Below, one piece after another: positions 55,603 through 62,701 of a stretch of DNA of 64,000 nt. A program made the translations under genes and the position numbers. The stretch is taken from positions 744,001 through 808,000 of the forward strand of contig NZ_NEVU01000001.1 in NCBI RefSeq assembly GCF_002261355.1, written 5' to 3'. The DNA is from Bordetella genomosp. 12. Its GTDB lineage: Bacteria; Pseudomonadota; Gammaproteobacteria; Burkholderiales; Burkholderiaceae_B. The stretch's first letter is position 1. Each line of letters starts with the position of its first letter. Under the pieces are notes generated by a model. The model saw only the letters and a list, made by a program, of their open reading frames with translations. It ran no database searches and was not told the origin of the DNA.

Positions 55603-55711
55603 TCGGCCTCTCGCAATTGCAGCGGTTCTGCAGCGAAATAAGGCCAGCGTCTCAAAACCTTCGGGTCATGAATTGCTGGCACATTTCCTCGGTGATAACA
55701 CTGCATGCGCC

Positions 55712-55787
55712 GGGCTGTTAGCTCAGTTGGTAGAGCAGCGGACTCTTAATCCGTAGGTCGAGTGTTCGAGCCACTCACAGCCCACCA
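55712..55787 (+). tRNA. tRNA-Lys, anticodon CTT
   Basis: A complete 76-nt cloverleaf: acceptor GGGCTGT pairing with ACAGCCC, anticodon loop CTCTTAA (anticodon CTT), TTCGAGCC in the T arm and an encoded CCA at 55785-55787. The accessory island begins directly after it, so its 3' end is a probable integration site, though no integrase is in the window. Confidence 0.97.
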
Positions 55788-55813
55788 GAATTCTCTAGTA
55801 GTATCAAGCGCTT

Positions 55814-55839
55814 AGCCCACCGGAAACGGTGGGCTTTTT
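55814..55839 (+). terminator. Rho-independent terminator after tRNA-Lys(CTT)
   Basis: A 9-bp stem (AGCCCACCG with CGGTGGGCT), GAAA tetraloop and T-run; a strong intrinsic terminator. Confidence 0.92.
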
Positions 55840-56283
55840 GCTTTCAGGGAATTTTGACCGCACTTCTAACGCACTCCGGTGTTTTTGCGGACTCTGGCAG
55901 CGACCTTCGAGCGCTGTTACAGAAAAAATTTCTGCCTCCATTTGCTGGTAGTTTTCGGCGAAACGGGGCCCCGCGAAGCAAGGGCCCTCCCGCGTTGGCG
56001 CTTATACCTCAATCCTCAAATTGTGAGATAAGCAGCGTGGCTAACATTCAGAAGCGCGGTGAATACCAAGACATCCTTTACAGGCGTTACGACTTCTGCT
56101 TGGCCTAGTGCATATGTCACTTGCGCCTCGGTGTAACGAGACTCCTTCATCGCGTCTTGCTCATTCTTCAAAAGAGCCTGAGGCGACCTTACTCTAGTTT
56201 TGACTTACCCACGTTTTTTGGGAGAACGTCAGAACGACCAAACGGTTCCCTTTAAGTGCCTGCGCTCTCGCACACTTCCGGCC
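55840..56283. other. Unassigned start of the accessory island
   Basis: About 440 bases with only short open frames that I cannot match to any family. Base composition drops from the core chromosome here. No integrase fragment or direct repeat of the tRNA end was recognised. Confidence 0.4.
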
Positions 56284-56472: not shown

Positions 56473-56484
56473 TAGTCTGTAGTC

Positions 56485-56496
56485 GGCCTACAGGCA
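56485..56496 (+). repeat. Retron inverted repeat a1
   Basis: A 12-base repeat that is the exact reverse complement of 56611-56622; together they form the closing stem of the msr-msd transcript. Confidence 0.85.
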
Positions 56497-56610
56497 GATT
56501 TTTTGCCATCGTTTCGTGGCATGTGACAGTAATGGCAGGTGCATTGCTCCTGTCGGTCCCATTAAGCCTCATGAGTCCATCATGTGGTGTCTGCGCATAG
56601 CGCATAGGAG

Positions 56611-56622
56611 TGCCTGTAGGCC
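56611..56622 (+). repeat. Retron inverted repeat a2
   Basis: The exact reverse complement of a1 (56485-56496). It sits between the msd and the RT start codon, as in other retrons. Confidence 0.85.
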
Positions 56623-56639
56623 ACCCTCACGGATCAAAG

Positions 56640-58373
56640 ATGACGCAGTTACAGAAGCTGAAGGAAGCTAAAAACCTTCATGATGTGGCGACGCTGCTAA
56701 ATTTCAAACCAAATAAGTTGTCCTACTTGCTGTACATAGCAGAGGATGAGGAAAAGTATAAAACGTTTGAAATAGCTAAAAGAAGTGGTGGCACACGCTC
56801 GATTGCTGCCCCCGACCCCAGACTAAAACAGCTTCAGCGCAACCTGTCTGTCTTGTTGCTCAACTGTCTGGATGAGTTGCGAGAAAAAAAGCTATATAAA
56901 GACGATATGGCGCATGGTTTCCTAAGGAAAAAAGGAATCGTAACTAACGCGGTGACGCACCGTGCCAAGCGCTTTGTGTTCAACATTGATATATCTGATT
57001 TTTTCGGTTCGATAAACTTTGGTCGGCTAAGAGGGTTTTTAATTAAGGACGATCGGTTCGAGTTGAATCCGAATGTGGCGACTATCCTGGCGCAGATTGC
57101 CTGCAGAAACCACACCCTGCCGCAGGGTAGTCCATGCTCCCCAGTAATATCTAATCTCATAGGCCACATTCTAGACGTGCGGCTTGCTGGGTTAGCTGCG
57201 AAAAATGGATGTCGCTATTCCCGCTATGCGGATGATATTACTTTTTCCACCAACAAAAAAGAATTTCCACAAGCCATTGCTATGCGAGAGCCAGACTCTC
57301 ATGCTTGGGTTGTTGGGGCCGAGCTTGAGGTTGTCCTTAGTGCAAATAATTATTCATTAAATACTAAGAAAACTCGAATGCAATACTGCGATTCGCGTCA
57401 AACTGTCACGGGGTTGGTCGTTAATCGGAAAGTTAACGTGCGTAGCGAGTATCGTCGTAGAGTCCGTGCGATGGTGCATCGACTATTTACGACCGGCCAG
57501 TTTGCAGTTCCGAGTACTAAAGTGGCCGCGACAGCAGCAGGCGCTGTGTCAAGTGAGGAGCCGGGCTCGCTCCCCCAATTGCATGGCATGTTGGGTTTTA
57601 TAGATGGAGTGGATCAATACAACATCCGAAAGCACGGGTTAAGGCTCGAAGAGCTTTCCGAGAAAGAAAAAACTTACAGGAAATTTTTGCTGTATAAGGA
57701 CTTTTTTCTAGCCGAGAGACCGGTAGTGCTTTGCGAGGGTAAGACAGATATTATTTATCTGAAGAATGCTGTGCGGCAACTGGCTGCTAAGTACCCTAAG
57801 CTGGGTGAGCAGACCGGCGAGAATAAATTTCAACACAACGTACGTTTTTATAAGTTTGCAGACTCTAGTACAGGAAGAATTCTTGGGCTAAGCGGTGGGG
57901 GCGGAGATTTTCAAAAATTTGCTCATGCCTATTTGTCTGAGGTTGGACAGTTTCCCACGCACCCTATTGCCGGATTAAAACATCCGGTAATTATTATGAT
58001 GGATAATGATTCGGGGGCTAATGCGGTCTGTAGCTATGCACTAAAGAGGACAAAAATTTCTGTCGATAGGGGTGGTGATTTTTTTCGCTTGGGCGAGAAT
58101 CTCTACTTGGTCTTGACGCCGTTTTTGCATGGCGAAAAACCATCGACAATTGAGGATTTTTTTGACGATGCAGTGAAATTGCGAACGGTCGAAGGCAAGG
58201 CATTTGACCCGGGCGATGAGCACGACACAGGTACTCATTATGGTAAGGCAATCTTTGCTAAAGAAGTCGTTGAGAAATATGCCGACGAGATAGACTTCAA
58301 TGCTTTTAGGGGAATTCTATCGAGGATAGAGGGTGTGATGAGCGACTACTATGCATCGCGGTTGGCATTGTAG
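56640..58373 (+). CDS. Retron reverse transcriptase fused to a TOPRIM domain (type I-C, Ec67/Eco2-like)
   Basis: A 577-residue protein. The RT part (about 20-300) has the retron NAxxH motif (NAVTH at 103-107), the following FNIDISDFFGSI, YADD at 196-199 and VTG at 256-258. The C-terminal part (about 355-577) is TOPRIM-like: VVLCEGKTD with Glu366, then IIMMDNDSG with Asp455 and Asp457. RT-TOPRIM fusion and length match retron Ec67, whose TOPRIM acts as the toxic effector released when phage disturb the RT-msDNA complex. The ATG at 56640 lies after a2; a GTG at 56610 would overlap the RNA. AT-richer than the core genome. Confidence 0.9.
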   Translation: MTQLQKLKEAKNLHDVATLLNFKPNKLSYLLYIAEDEEKYKTFEIAKRSGGTRSIAAPDPRLKQLQRNLSVLLLNCLDELREKKLYKDDMAHGFLRKKGIVTNAVTHRAKRFVFNIDISDFFGSINFGRLRGFLIKDDRFELNPNVATILAQIACRNHTLPQGSPCSPVISNLIGHILDVRLAGLAAKNGCRYSRYADDITFSTNKKEFPQAIAMREPDSHAWVVGAELEVVLSANNYSLNTKKTRMQYCDSRQTVTGLVVNRKVNVRSEYRRRVRAMVHRLFTTGQFAVPSTKVAATAAGAVSSEEPGSLPQLHGMLGFIDGVDQYNIRKHGLRLEELSEKEKTYRKFLLYKDFFLAERPVVLCEGKTDIIYLKNAVRQLAAKYPKLGEQTGENKFQHNVRFYKFADSSTGRILGLSGGGGDFQKFAHAYLSEVGQFPTHPIAGLKHPVIIMMDNDSGANAVCSYALKRTKISVDRGGDFFRLGENLYLVLTPFLHGEKPSTIEDFFDDAVKLRTVEGKAFDPGDEHDTGTHYGKAIFAKEVVEKYADEIDFNAFRGILSRIEGVMSDYYASRLAL

Positions 58374-58395: not shown

Positions 58396-59592
58396 CCGTA
58401 AGCTCCCCCTTCAGGTAGACACCAATCGGTAGAATTTTGGAGCCTCCCTGAGTCGGAGATTCCCTTGAAGAAAAGCAAATTTACCGAGAGCCAGATCGTT
58501 GCTGTGCTGGAGAAAGGCGAAGCCGGCATGCCGGTCGCCGAGTTGTGCCGTAAGCATGGCATCCGCAACGCCACGTATGACCTTTGGAAGAGCAAGTTCT
58601 CCGGCGTGCAAGTTTCCGAGTTGCAACGGCTACGCGAGCTGGAAACTGAAAACGCCAAGCTCAAACGCATGTTTTCCGACTTGGCACAGGAATGCTGCGA
58701 TCAAGGATGTCTTGAATCGAAAATCTTGACGCCGTCGGCCAGGCGCGAAGTGATGGAACAGCCGGTACAAGCCAAGCTCTCAATCACGCGCGCCTGTCAG
58801 ATTGCCGGCCTATCGCGGGCGGCGTACTTCAAGAAACCAATGCCGGCATCTGAGCGGGATGCCCAAGTTATTTATGCTCTCAATGCTATTGAGACTCGGC
58901 ATGGGCGCTGGGGATTCTGGAAGTGTTTTACCCGGCTGCAGCTCGGCGGCCGTGGCTGGAACAAAAAGCGCGTTCATCGGGTGTACTGCGACATGGGTGT
59001 GAATTCGCCTCGACGCTGCAAAAAACGGCTAACCGACCGGCTGCGACAGCCACTGGATCTGGCCACAGAGCCTAATCGTTGTTGGGCGCTCGACTTCATG
59101 CACGACGCTCTTTACTGCGGCCGACGGTTTCGAACTCTGAACGTGATCGAGGAGGCGAACCGGGAGTGCTTGGCCATCGAGGTAGGCGTGCCCATCCCTT
59201 TGGCACGCCTGATTCGAGTCTTGGGCCGATTGATCGCCTGCTATGGGTCGCCTACCGCAATACGCCTGGATAATGGTCCGGAGATGATCTCAGAAGCCTT
59301 TACCGAATGGGCTGGCGCAAAGGGCATAGCGATCCGCTGTATCCAGCCTGGCAAGCCAAATCAGAATGCCTTCATCGAGCGCTTTAATCGAACGTATCGA
59401 ACCGAGGTGCTCGACGCGCACCTGTTCGCCAATCTTGAGCAGGTCCAAGCGATTACCGATCAATGGCTGGTCGATTACAACCAGTACCGCCCACACGAAT
59501 CGCGGGGTGGCCTCCCGGTGGTGCAATTCATGCCTCGGTTAACCCTCGCTCCGATCGTCTATCAGACGGTGTCTACTTGACAGGGGCTTACG
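58396..59592 (+). mobile_element. IS3-family insertion sequence (IS407-like group)
   Basis: One transposase gene between imperfect ends: left near 58397 (CGTAAGC, then GTAGACACC at 58416-58424), right near 59592 (GGTGTCTAC at 59568-59576, then GCTTACG). The inner GTAGACACC block is shared exactly in inverted order. No clear target duplication is seen, so the boundaries are approximate. It separates the retron from the broken restriction-modification operon. Confidence 0.8.
58465..59580 (+). CDS. IS3-family transposase, OrfA and OrfB in one frame
   Basis: 371 residues: an OrfA-like helix-turn-helix and leucine-zipper part (1-85; KFTESQIVAVL, ELETENAKLKRMFSDLA) joined to an OrfB-like DDE integrase with the catalytic residues in WALDFMHD, RLDNGPE and NAFIERFNRTYR. 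Starts at TTG behind GGAG. The usual OrfA tail (AAIKDVLNRKS) is visible in the next frame at 58694-58726, so a small two-base deletion near 58690 has fused OrfA and OrfB in one frame instead of by programmed frameshift. Confidence 0.88.
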   Translation: MKKSKFTESQIVAVLEKGEAGMPVAELCRKHGIRNATYDLWKSKFSGVQVSELQRLRELETENAKLKRMFSDLAQECCDQGCLESKILTPSARREVMEQPVQAKLSITRACQIAGLSRAAYFKKPMPASERDAQVIYALNAIETRHGRWGFWKCFTRLQLGGRGWNKKRVHRVYCDMGVNSPRRCKKRLTDRLRQPLDLATEPNRCWALDFMHDALYCGRRFRTLNVIEEANRECLAIEVGVPIPLARLIRVLGRLIACYGSPTAIRLDNGPEMISEAFTEWAGAKGIAIRCIQPGKPNQNAFIERFNRTYRTEVLDAHLFANLEQVQAITDQWLVDYNQYRPHESRGGLPVVQFMPRLTLAPIVYQTVST

Positions 59593-59642: not shown

Positions 59643-60846
59643 GTGAGCGATACGTCAGCCCAACCCCAGCATAAGTCAGCCCAACACCAGCATAAACAAG
59701 AGGCGGTACAACGGCCTGACGTAGGTGTCCAGAACCAGTTCAGCATCAAAAGGCCGAACCGGGTCTATAGCTACGACTCCAGGCTGGACCCGGCGCTGTC
59801 GTGGGATGGGAATCGTGAGCGCGAGCTTGGCGAGTGGCTGATTGGCGTGGTTGTCCGCTGTGCGGAGGAAGGCGAAGCGGCGGTTTTTCAGTCGCCGCAA
59901 GTCTGGAAAGGAGGTGGGGTTCAAGTGCAGTCTTTCCAGGCTGCAGCACATTTGTTGCAGACCCTCTCTCAACCCTTCCTGACCTGGGCTGGCACAACTG
60001 AACGGCATCAACTCGGCGAGCCAACCATCCCGCTGTTCGTGCATGAACGGCATTCGACCAAAGCCATCCTACACGGCATCAAGAACCGCAGGGCTAAAAG
60101 TACCATCCTTGACCTGTGTGGCGACTCGCAACTGGACATGACCTACCGACTTGATGCCTATGAGCACAAGGGGCAGTGGCAGAACCGCATGATTCTGGGC
60201 GATAGCCTGCAGGTCATGAATTCTATGCAGCAGTTTGAAACTTTGGACGGCCAGATGCAGATGGTCTATATAGATCCTGCATACGGGGTGAGGTTCGGCT
60301 CGAATTTTCAGCCGTTCGTACGGAAGCGCGATGTAAAGGACGGCGCGGATAACGAGATGACCCGCGAGCCGGAAATGGTCAAAACCTATTGTGACACTTG
60401 GGAGCTACGACAAAATCCATCACTTCCGTGAAATAATAGACGAGGTATTTGACGCTAAAAAATTTATATCCCTGGCCACCTTTCAACCGACATCGGGATT
60501 TGCAACTTGTGCCATCGCTACGCTCGTTAATTATTTGCTTTGGTATGCAAAGGATGCGGAGAGGCTGAAGAGGGAAAAATTATTTGAAAAACAGCCTATC
60601 TTGCTGGGTGCTGGGCACTGACGATGACCCCTCGGTTTTTTCTATGCCTCGCAGGTGTTTTGCCCTAAAACCAGCACCTGGGACAATCTGAAAAACTCTC
60701 TCAGGGCTGATTGCGATGAGTCGGTGTGGTCGCACTTGGCAGGCACCACGAGCGAGCCGTTTGTCTTTGGGGCGCGTCATCGCATCGCGGTCAAGGTGAT
60801 TGATGAACGTGGCAACGAGTTGATGCGTATTGTGGAGATAGCGTAA
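59643..60846 (+). pseudogene. Broken adenine-specific DNA methyltransferase (type III Mod-like)
   Basis: The first frame (59643-60431) carries the N-terminal part with motif IV VYIDPAYGVRFGSNFQPF and EPEMVKTYCDTWEL, then goes out of frame. A second frame resumes with HFREIIDEVFDAKKFISL and NYLLWYAKDAERLK (to 60621), and a third (about 60640-60846) keeps the C-terminus SVWSHLAGTTSEPF and AVKVIDERGNEL. Large internal parts are missing, so it cannot methylate. Its last stop overlaps the ATPase start (TAATG), the order of a coupled restriction-modification operon. Confidence 0.78.
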
Positions 60847-62066
60847 TGCCCATCCTTGAAGGGATTCAAATCCAAAATTTCCGGGCCTTGCAGAACGTCA
60901 CTTTGGGTAAGACATTCGACAATGACAAAGAAGTCTTGCCGCGCCTTATGGCGGTAATCGGTCCAAATGGCTCTGGAAAATCCAGCCTGATGGATGCGTT
61001 GGGATTTGTTGGTGACTGTCTACAGGAAGGGGTGCAGGCGGCTTGCGATAAGCCGCATCGCGGCGGGTTCGAACGCTTGCGCACGCAAGGTGTGACTGAG
61101 CCAATAAAGATTGAGATTCGATATCGACAAAATTCGGACGCGCGACCGATTAGCTATTCGCTGCACATTAATTGCGATAAGCATGGTCGTGCACAGGTGG
61201 TCTATGAGCGTCTCCGTCAAAGGCGCAAGGGTCAGAGTTCAGGGTGGCCCCATTCCTTTCTGCAAATTGAAAATGGCATTGGTACCGTGTGGGCCGGGGA
61301 AGCCACAACGGAACAGGAAGGTACGCGCCATGACGATGTGAAGATGAGTGACCGTCAGGTTCTCGGTATCGCAACGCTTGGTACTTTGGCTGACCACCCT
61401 CGAATTTCCTCGTTCCGGGCTTTTTTGTCGGGATGGTACTTGTCGTACTTTGTCCCACAACTTGCTCGAACTCAGCCGATTTCTGGTGCAGAACCGCATC
61501 TGGACAGTACCGGAGAAAATTTGGCCAAGTATCTACAGTATATCGCCCGCGAAAACCCTGAAAATTTCCGATTGATGCTGAATCGTGTCGCTAAGAAAAT
61601 TCCGGGTATTACTGAAATTTCATCAGTGGAAGCGCCCGACAAGAGGCTTTTACTAGCATTTCGCTCCAAAGGATATGCAGAGCCATTTTATCAGCAGGAT
61701 ATGTCTGACGGTACGCTAAAGATGCTCGCGTATCTGCTGATGATGGAAGACCCCGACCCTGCGCCATTGATTGGTATTGAAGAGCCCGAGAACGGCCTGC
61801 ATCACCAGCTCTTGGCCGACCTTGCCACTGAATTCAAGGACTTCGCAAGAAAATCAAAGGGGCCACAGGTTCTGATTACTACGCATGCGCCGAATTTCGT
61901 CGATGCCCTATCGCCAGAAGAGGTCTGGATTCTGGACAAGGGAGAAGATGGATACAGTCGATTGACTCGCGCGGCAGACATTCCGGGAGTTCGTGCCATG
62001 TTCGAGGAGGGCATCCCGATGGGCAGCCTGTGGTTCAGCAATCATTTTGGCATCGGTAACCCATGA
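60846..62066 (+). CDS. AAA/ABC-type ATPase paired with DUF4276 (OLD/RecF-like)
   Basis: A 406-residue ATPase with Walker A GPNGSGKSS near residue 39, a coiled middle region, an SDGTLKMLAYLL signature-like segment near 290, Walker B LIGIEEPENGLH near 308 and an H-loop ITTHAPNF near 343. Family members are SMC-like nucleotide switches that act with a TOPRIM or similar effector in phage defence. Start overlaps the broken methylase stop; its end overlaps the DUF4276 start by four bases. Unlike its neighbours on both sides the frame is intact. Confidence 0.85.
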   Translation: MPILEGIQIQNFRALQNVTLGKTFDNDKEVLPRLMAVIGPNGSGKSSLMDALGFVGDCLQEGVQAACDKPHRGGFERLRTQGVTEPIKIEIRYRQNSDARPISYSLHINCDKHGRAQVVYERLRQRRKGQSSGWPHSFLQIENGIGTVWAGEATTEQEGTRHDDVKMSDRQVLGIATLGTLADHPRISSFRAFLSGWYLSYFVPQLARTQPISGAEPHLDSTGENLAKYLQYIARENPENFRLMLNRVAKKIPGITEISSVEAPDKRLLLAFRSKGYAEPFYQQDMSDGTLKMLAYLLMMEDPDPAPLIGIEEPENGLHHQLLADLATEFKDFARKSKGPQVLITTHAPNFVDALSPEEVWILDKGEDGYSRLTRAADIPGVRAMFEEGIPMGSLWFSNHFGIGNP

Positions 62067-62701
62067 GCTACTTCGAAGTGTTGGTCGAGGGCGGCTCTGA
62101 CGTGCCGACCCTTCGGGAGATTCTGACTCGCAAATTTAACCTGGAAGAAGACACGCACTTTCGGATTCATCCACACAAAGGGCGTGGAAAGTTGCCGGGA
62201 AATGTGTTGGCACAACCAGACCCGAAGCATCAAGCATTGTTGGAGCAGCTTCCTGCAAAACTGCGCGGATTTGGTCGGTATCTAGGTGATGACTCTTGCG
62301 TACTTGTTGTCCTGGACGCGGATGACACTCCCCGCGATGAGCTATTGGCCAGCCTACAAGCAATGCTGGAGCAGCTACCAACGCGGCCTCGACGGGTGCT
62401 ATTTCGTCTCGCCATAGAGGAAACCGAAAGTTGGTTCATTGCGGACGAAACTGCGATTCTTGCTGCGTTTCCGAAGGCCAAAGTGCAGAGGCTCCGCAAT
62501 ATCGAGCCAGACGCGATAGTTGGCGCATGGGAGACTTTGGCCGATGCTTTGGGGGTCAACAAGCATTTGGTGACTGGCGCGGACAAGTATGCTTGGGCGG
62601 AGGCTATTGCACCGCACCTCGACCTTGATAACCCTCGCTCACCCAGCCTCAGAGAGTTGGTTGATGGCGTTCGCCATGAAGTAGCGTTGGATGCAGTATG
62701 A
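62063..62701 (+). CDS. DUF4276 family protein (TOPRIM-like)
   Basis: A 212-residue protein. The start FEVLVEGGSDVPTLREIL holds the conserved Glu of a TOPRIM-type fold and CVLVVLDADDTPRDEL holds the acidic pair. A later segment FRLAIEETESWFIADE is typical of DUF4276. It is coupled to the ATPase by ATGA and to the next, broken gene by ATGA, so all four once formed one unit. It probably is the nucleic-acid-cutting or regulatory partner of the ATPase; this is inferred from family pairing. Confidence 0.82.
   Translation: MSYFEVLVEGGSDVPTLREILTRKFNLEEDTHFRIHPHKGRGKLPGNVLAQPDPKHQALLEQLPAKLRGFGRYLGDDSCVLVVLDADDTPRDELLASLQAMLEQLPTRPRRVLFRLAIEETESWFIADETAILAAFPKAKVQRLRNIEPDAIVGAWETLADALGVNKHLVTGADKYAWAEAIAPHLDLDNPRSPSLRELVDGVRHEVALDAV

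Follow-up and report, generated by a model that had tools for sequence, protein, structure and literature searches.

An intact-looking type I-C retron of the Ec67/Eco2 family beside a tRNA-Lys gene in a Bordetella genome

Fusion of retron reverse transcriptases (RTs) to effector proteins is frequent: about 32.8% of 3395 retron RTs have been reported to carry such a fusion, and Toprim is the most prevalent effector among them (PMC12405507, the source, in excerpt, of the background given here), so RT-Toprim retrons are a common kind. The closest solved relative by sequence of the locus described below is Ec67/Eco2, a type I-C retron of E. coli (PDB 9lm3, 9i2f, 9i2g, 9s1f). In Eco2, the msd has 67 bases, dT1 of the msDNA is attached to rG15, and copying stops short of the next template base, rU51 (PMC12405507). 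H281 makes a stacking contact with the msr loop, the structure is poorly resolved at the start of the msDNA, and a loop at residues 328-342 carries D331, R332 and Y333 at the trimer interface (PMC12405507). The R332 loop is needed for defence; the loop by itself is insufficient for trimers, and the authors concluded that the msDNA mediates them (PMC12405507). No publication pairing two of the topics retron census, retron Ec67, msDNA production and Burkholderiales was found in our literature search.

Here we analysed a 64-kb window (the whole stretch of DNA under study) of Bordetella genomosp. 12, in which a sequence-only reading had described an intact and active Ec67-like retron with a complete msr-msd in a betaproteobacterial island. 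The retron locus, 56485-58373, consists of a 138-nt ncRNA followed by the gene for an RT-Toprim fusion, both on the (+) strand (Table 1). The a1 and a2 repeats enclose 114 nt, the ATG lies 17 nt past a2, and the stop codon is at 58371-58373. This ATG is the likely start, because the GTG at which the open frame begins (56610) sits at the edge of a2.

Table 1. Positions, in the window, of the features of the retron locus
Feature	Position	Strand	Basis and remarks
a1 arm of the ncRNA	56485..56496	+	GGCCTACAGGCA; perfect 12-bp inverted repeat with a2; pairs covary in relatives
a2 arm of the ncRNA	56611..56622	+	TGCCTGTAGGCC; pairs with a1; covariance model and repeat scan
Predicted branch-point guanosine with the 2',5' link to the msDNA (corresponds to Ec67 rG15)	56497	+	G in 48/48 distinct ncRNAs (window included); role taken from PMC12405507 (in excerpt)
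msr stem-loop with TTT loop	56504..56521	+	RNA fold of the window; 96.2% of cells paired in 12 sequences
Predicted msd template	56534..56609	+	landmarks transferred from Ec67; both ends inferred
Whole ncRNA (msr-msd)	56485..56622	+	covariance model R1, model positions 1-130 of 130
RT-Toprim fusion, 577 aa	56640..58373	+	PADLOC RT-Toprim_I-C, NCBIfam NF038237, PDB Ec67
Reverse transcriptase domain, residues 1 to ~360	56640..57719	+	Pfam RVT_1; NAxxH, YADD, VTG; boundary by alignment to Ec67 residues 1-368
Toprim effector domain, residues ~361-577	57720..58370	+	catalytic residues aligned with Ec67

The locus is very probably a type I-C retron of the Ec67/Eco2 family, which would form a branched msDNA of about 76 nt, assemble into a self-inhibited complex and release a Toprim RNase on a phage trigger. 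Pairing of a1 with a2 would fold the ncRNA, and the RT would prime DNA synthesis at the 2'-OH of the G following a1; the msd would then be copied into the msDNA, which would be left attached to the msr RNA. RNA, DNA and protein together would make up the inhibited complex, with the fused Toprim nuclease held off until a phage factor damages or remodels the msDNA and the Toprim domain is released. The freed Toprim would cut RNA, translation would stop, and phage growth would be blocked. Branch formation, self-inhibition, the RNase output and the nuclease trigger are carried over in this scheme from Eco2, for which the phage nuclease DenB is the likely trigger (PMC12405507, in excerpt). By the same analogy, the retron of the window is presumably expressed, makes msDNA and acts in phage defence.

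The assignment to type I-C was supported by searches with profiles and structures. PADLOC RT-Toprim_I-C was the best model (730.7 bits, 2.6e-220, matching residues 9-583 when the frame is read from the GTG, at 587 aa), NCBIfam retron_Ec67_fus (NF038237) was passed with 684.2 bits against a cut-off of 450, and in a PDB search the Ec67 chains (9lm3, 9i2f) were the only ones to align across nearly the whole protein (residues 10-580, E about 1e-117). The best PADLOC model of another type was RT-TIR_XII (348.3 bits); the RT domain of these type XII retrons is related, whereas their effector is, by the model name, TIR and not Toprim. Other retron types were rejected on their lower PADLOC and NCBIfam scores. 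Two more PADLOC I-C models, PDLC02968 (327.2 bits) and PDLC02965 (323.9 bits), scored below RT-TIR_XII, and thus the PADLOC label 'I-C' covers more than one group. The sole Pfam match in the fusion protein was RVT_1; the Toprim call therefore rests on the alignment to Ec67 together with the full-length PADLOC and NCBIfam models.

Residues were mapped by aligning the window protein with 27 relatives (28 proteins in all), numbered on the Ec67 reference L022, the protein of which matches the PDB chains over chain residues 1-586. The RT motifs that had been claimed are all present in the window protein (N103-A104-H107, Y196-A197-D198-D199 and V256-T257-G258), and so are the Glu and Asp residues of the fused Toprim domain: in addition to G367, the protein has E366, D370, D455, D457, E505 and K536, which align with Ec67 E374, D378, D460, D462, E515 and K546, respectively. 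In Ec67 numbering, N106, H110, R56, Y199, D201, D202, K245, E374, G375, D378, D460, E515 and K546 are invariant in 28/28 proteins; R247 is kept in 27/28, position 46 is Phe in 26/28, position 462 is Asp in 23/28 and Glu in 5/28, and position 281 is His in 17/28, the window protein included. S513 is variable in the family and is Thr in the window protein. The published account, in the excerpt used here, names K562 as the catalytic lysine (PMC12405507); residue 562 of the Ec67 sequence is Asp, and position 546 is Lys in 28/28, so K546 was taken as the catalytic lysine. The Toprim DxD reads DxE in L023, L026, L027, L028 and L031, which are four Bacillota plasmid records and one faecal phage record.

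The same parts could serve another output, if the Toprim domain cut DNA instead of RNA, as in Gabija. Toprim domains of related systems do cut DNA (PMC12405507, in excerpt), and what we compared are sequences; however, the Toprim of Ec67 shows RNase activity (PMC12405507), and the metal-binding residues of Ec67 are kept in the window protein except for S513. We consider a DNA-cutting Toprim unlikely and retain the RNase as the preferred output.

Upstream of the retron lies tRNA-Lys(CTT) at 55712-55787, at which 20-kb stretches of three genomes of the same genus (G839, G846 and G841) were compared with the window. For G839 and G846, similarity spans the tRNA and the left flank and ends at 55793. 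Similarity to G839 resumes about 46 kb further on in the genome of the window and about 14 kb further on in G839; with G846 and G841 it does not resume within 20 kb, short scattered matches aside. This pattern fits a putative variable region at tRNA-Lys. An integrase-driven island was rejected after a search for the Phage_integrase family (PF00589), which has seven matches in the genome, none of them on the retron's contig C3. The earlier term 'island' thus holds in the sense of a variable region beside tRNA-Lys and fails in that the contig has no Phage_integrase match. The similarity to G841, for which the left flank was outside the compared stretch, comprises the tRNA and about 115 bp after it (window 55700-55904 against G841:C1:586689-586893, 96% identical) and is followed by divergence, possibly at the edge of a hotspot. 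Between the tRNA and the retron, a 165-bp stretch (56067-56231) has a 90% identical copy at another place in the same genome (G000:C2:730444-730608).

Downstream, the frame of an IS3-family transposase (58465-59580) starts about 90 bases past the retron stop. In the next frame (59643-60431), the match to a type III methyltransferase model is limited to positions 97-236 out of 983, and the gene looks broken; short frames at 60391-60621 and 60655-60846 follow it in this broken-looking region (59643-60846). At 60846-62701, an AAA_21 ATPase (406 aa) and a DUF4276 protein (212 aa) are encoded side by side and match the PADLOC candidate defence system HEC-01 A/B with 565.7 and 229.6 bits. Before the ncRNA, no sigma-70-like site passed our promoter scan of the plus strand. 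A terminator-like hairpin at 56475-56495 overlaps a1; two such sites were found against a shuffle mean of 2.2, a chance-level number. Composed of the a1 arm and the preceding bases and followed by T's, this hairpin could compete with the a1/a2 pairing if transcription starts upstream.

These surroundings could also be read as those of a decayed retron, a member of the family by descent that is no longer expressed or active and was left stranded next to the IS3 element and the broken-looking methyltransferase gene. Such decay would be in keeping with the nearby transposase and partial methyltransferase frames, with the outcome of the promoter scan and with the scattered occurrence of the retron in the genus (three of 15 genomes), but the 577-aa frame is open and encodes all the checked catalytic residues, a1 and a2 pair perfectly, and the ncRNA is matched over its full length (below). 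We regard decay as quite improbable. The same features bear out the claim that the retron is intact, and we take it to be an intact-looking retron that appears ordinary for the Ec67/Eco2 anti-phage family apart from a missing loop.

For the ncRNA, a covariance model (R1) was built from the upstream regions of 28 relatives, with the window left out; L030, which duplicates L018, and L015, whose upstream sequence is given as N, were omitted, and the row of L006 is 2 nt short at its 5' end. R1 matched the window at 56485-56622 with 95.4 bits and an E-value of 4.7e-19, which was the sole match up to E 1, and the msr-msd is thus complete, as had been proposed. No Rfam family matched the ncRNA of the window at the gathering threshold. 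The perfect a1/a2 repeats and the msr hairpin with its TTT loop were both found as described by the sequence-only reading (Table 1). The a1/a2 pair is the sole perfect 12-bp pair with a spacer of 80-180 nt in the 64-kb window; when the 250 nt preceding the ATG were dinucleotide-shuffled, 11 of 20,000 shuffles also contained such a pair, so that the repeat by itself is suggestive, not conclusive. That the repeat and hairpins arose by chance and only the RT-Toprim gene is real, which these shuffles would allow, has a negligible probability and was rejected on the match to R1, a model that had not included the window, and the same element lies upstream of relatives in Pseudomonadota and Bacillota records.

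Folded as RNA, the whole ncRNA reached -61.3 kcal/mol (z -4.6), and none of 200 shuffles was as stable. RNAalifold on the 28 relatives gave 20 pairs, 17 of them with both sides changed in at least one sequence. In an alignment of the window with 11 relatives, on the window-derived structure, both sides changed in 15 of 25 pairs, and the covariation score of these 12 sequences (0.421) was above those of all 500 shuffles, which averaged 0.197, and of all six slides, none of which exceeded 0.143; for one covariation measure out of five, 'further pair types', 12 of the 500 shuffles did as well or better. Helix pairing in the 12 sequences was 93.8% for a1/a2 and 73.3% for the msd hairpin by the msDNA 3' end (for the msr, see Table 1). 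The a1/a2 pairing falls short of 12/12 in L001 (10), L003 (8), L013 (11), L014 (10) and L027 (11). The msd hairpin of the sequence-only reading was borne out in part. The msDNA strand of 56533-56610 (the predicted msDNA and one base at each end), folded as DNA, formed three short hairpins with -13.3 kcal/mol (z -2.1; 5 of 200 shuffles at least as stable); short hairpins are present in this weak fold, but no one clear hairpin is. A single long msd hairpin was unsupported by folding, and since the same program draws none for Ec67 either, this is a weak test of it.

The specificity of R1 was seen in 74 further loci gathered after it was built. R1 matched 34 of them (L043-L047, L050-L070, L094 and L110-L116), in which the protein match either is to Ec67 itself or runs on past the RT (L068 and L116 end at contig edges). 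In 38 of the 40 loci without an R1 match (L071-L093 and L095-L109), the protein match is limited to the RT part; contig ends truncate L098 and L102 among them, so that these two could belong to any type. L049, likewise unmatched by R1, has a protein match in the RT part only, and L048, where the relative is matched only from residue 157 on, was counted as a miss. A model from 28 sequences thus finds 34 of 35 later RT-Toprim loci, not all of them independent (six contigs were taken twice, and several carry Ec67 itself, which R1 contains), and automatic annotation of this ncRNA class would be feasible. Among 268 genomes of the window's taxonomic family, the protein (E <= 1e-60) was present in seven and the ncRNA in six, each ncRNA beside the protein; five of the six were in R1, and the sixth is the window's genome. 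The seventh protein-bearing genome (G901) has N's upstream of the gene.

The ends of the msDNA were predicted from landmarks, with the end after AA[T/C] and the start opposite the A of the GAG before a2. By this rule, the msDNA has 67 nt in Ec67 and 76 nt in the window, where the predicted msDNA is the reverse complement of 56534-56609, 5'-TCCTATGCGC...CACCTGCC-3'. As a script, the rule misplaced the msDNA end in several relatives (L002, L004, L006, L012, L024 and L025, for example), and the lengths there were therefore not used. In the set of 48 distinct ncRNAs, which includes that of the window and from which 13 of the 34 later matches were removed manually because they looked like copies, the G after a1 is followed by A in 48/48. 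Counting back from a2, A stands at the fifth base in 44 and C at the eighth in 37; the GAG before a2 is unbroken in 47, a count inflated because GAGT served to locate a2 in the first set.

The retron resembles Ec67/Eco2 in the RT-Toprim fusion with the same motifs and catalytic residues, and in the plan of the ncRNA: a1/a2, G-A after a1, an msr stem-loop, AAT followed by GGCAGG at the msd end, and GAG before a2. It differs in that the proteins are 40% identical, the DRY loop is absent and the predicted msDNA is longer; furthermore, the Ec67 copy L022 sits among phage genes, whereas the window retron lies beside tRNA-Lys. Two RT-Toprim retrons from genomes of the same genus (L010 and L011) share 57% identity, the same short loop, and a very similar msr and msd 3' hairpin with it, and differ in the middle of the msDNA, with predicted lengths of 75 and 81 nt. 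In a tree of the 28 I-C proteins, the window groups with these two genomes of its own genus (support 100/99), and the wider 10-row branch around it is weak (81/79). The Ec67 branch has 14 rows (100/99), with records from Gammaproteobacteria and Bacillota, one phage record of faecal origin and, from the window's order, two genomes (L007 and L008). As to the placement of the RT, profile scores favour I-C and gave no sign of a position outside the clade of Ec67, and this tree, built of I-C proteins only and with no outgroup, splits the window and Ec67 into different branches within I-C.

Protein matches, with the window's own genome included, were found in 7 of 268 genomes at the level of the family, 4 of 399 for the order and 2 of 369 for the class; for the phylum, 8 of 398 genomes had a match at a looser limit, two of them partial. 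Among the relatives that have names are a Betaproteobacteria MAG, Polynucleobacter, Caballeronia and a Terriglobia MAG. The label 'betaproteobacterial' agrees with named relatives; the frames of the Caballeronia and Terriglobia MAG relatives are interrupted. The genome has no second copy of protein or ncRNA at E <= 0.001. Plasmid and phage records were rejected as carriers of a close copy, since the 36 plasmid and 2 phage records at E <= 1e-30 are all below 60% identity; in viral records, a first scan gave no relative and an alignment-based scan gave distant ones.

Ec67 residues 312-352 (41 residues) correspond to 25 residues in the window protein, 16 fewer and with no counterpart of D331-R332-Y333, and the loop with these residues is thus absent. 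In an alignment of 60 rows (the 28 earlier ones and 32 new rows of at least 480 aa; L068 was dropped for length), [DE][RK]Y was observed at 331-333 in 19/60 rows (duplicates counted), each with an identity to Ec67 of about 50% or more. In the other rows the stretch is missing or loosely aligned; L019 and L020 have KY at 332-333 here, but not in the earlier alignment. On a 28-protein tree for which that stretch had been left out, a single change accounts for the pattern. As the motif is confined to rows about 50% or more identical to Ec67, the contact looks local to the relatives of Ec67. Furthermore, since the loop is insufficient and trimers are attributed to the msDNA in Eco2 (PMC12405507, in excerpt), RNA-driven assembly without the loop is plausible.

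Our analysis adds to type I-C a complete, divergent member with a predicted msDNA of 76 nt. The comparison also helps to sort the general parts of the solved Eco2 complex (R56, K245, R247 and F46) from those that are not general (H281 and the DRY loop). We tentatively suggest, as a possibility that we would not yet favour, that Ec67 is the exception: a large part of type I-C, this retron included, may build the inhibited complex in the absence of the R332 loop, on which defence by Eco2 depends, so that assembly would be through RNA only or would involve another number of subunits, and the start of the msDNA, whose bases lie opposite GC..A.GA of the RNA and are conserved in the family, may be an element that is bound by the protein or sensed.
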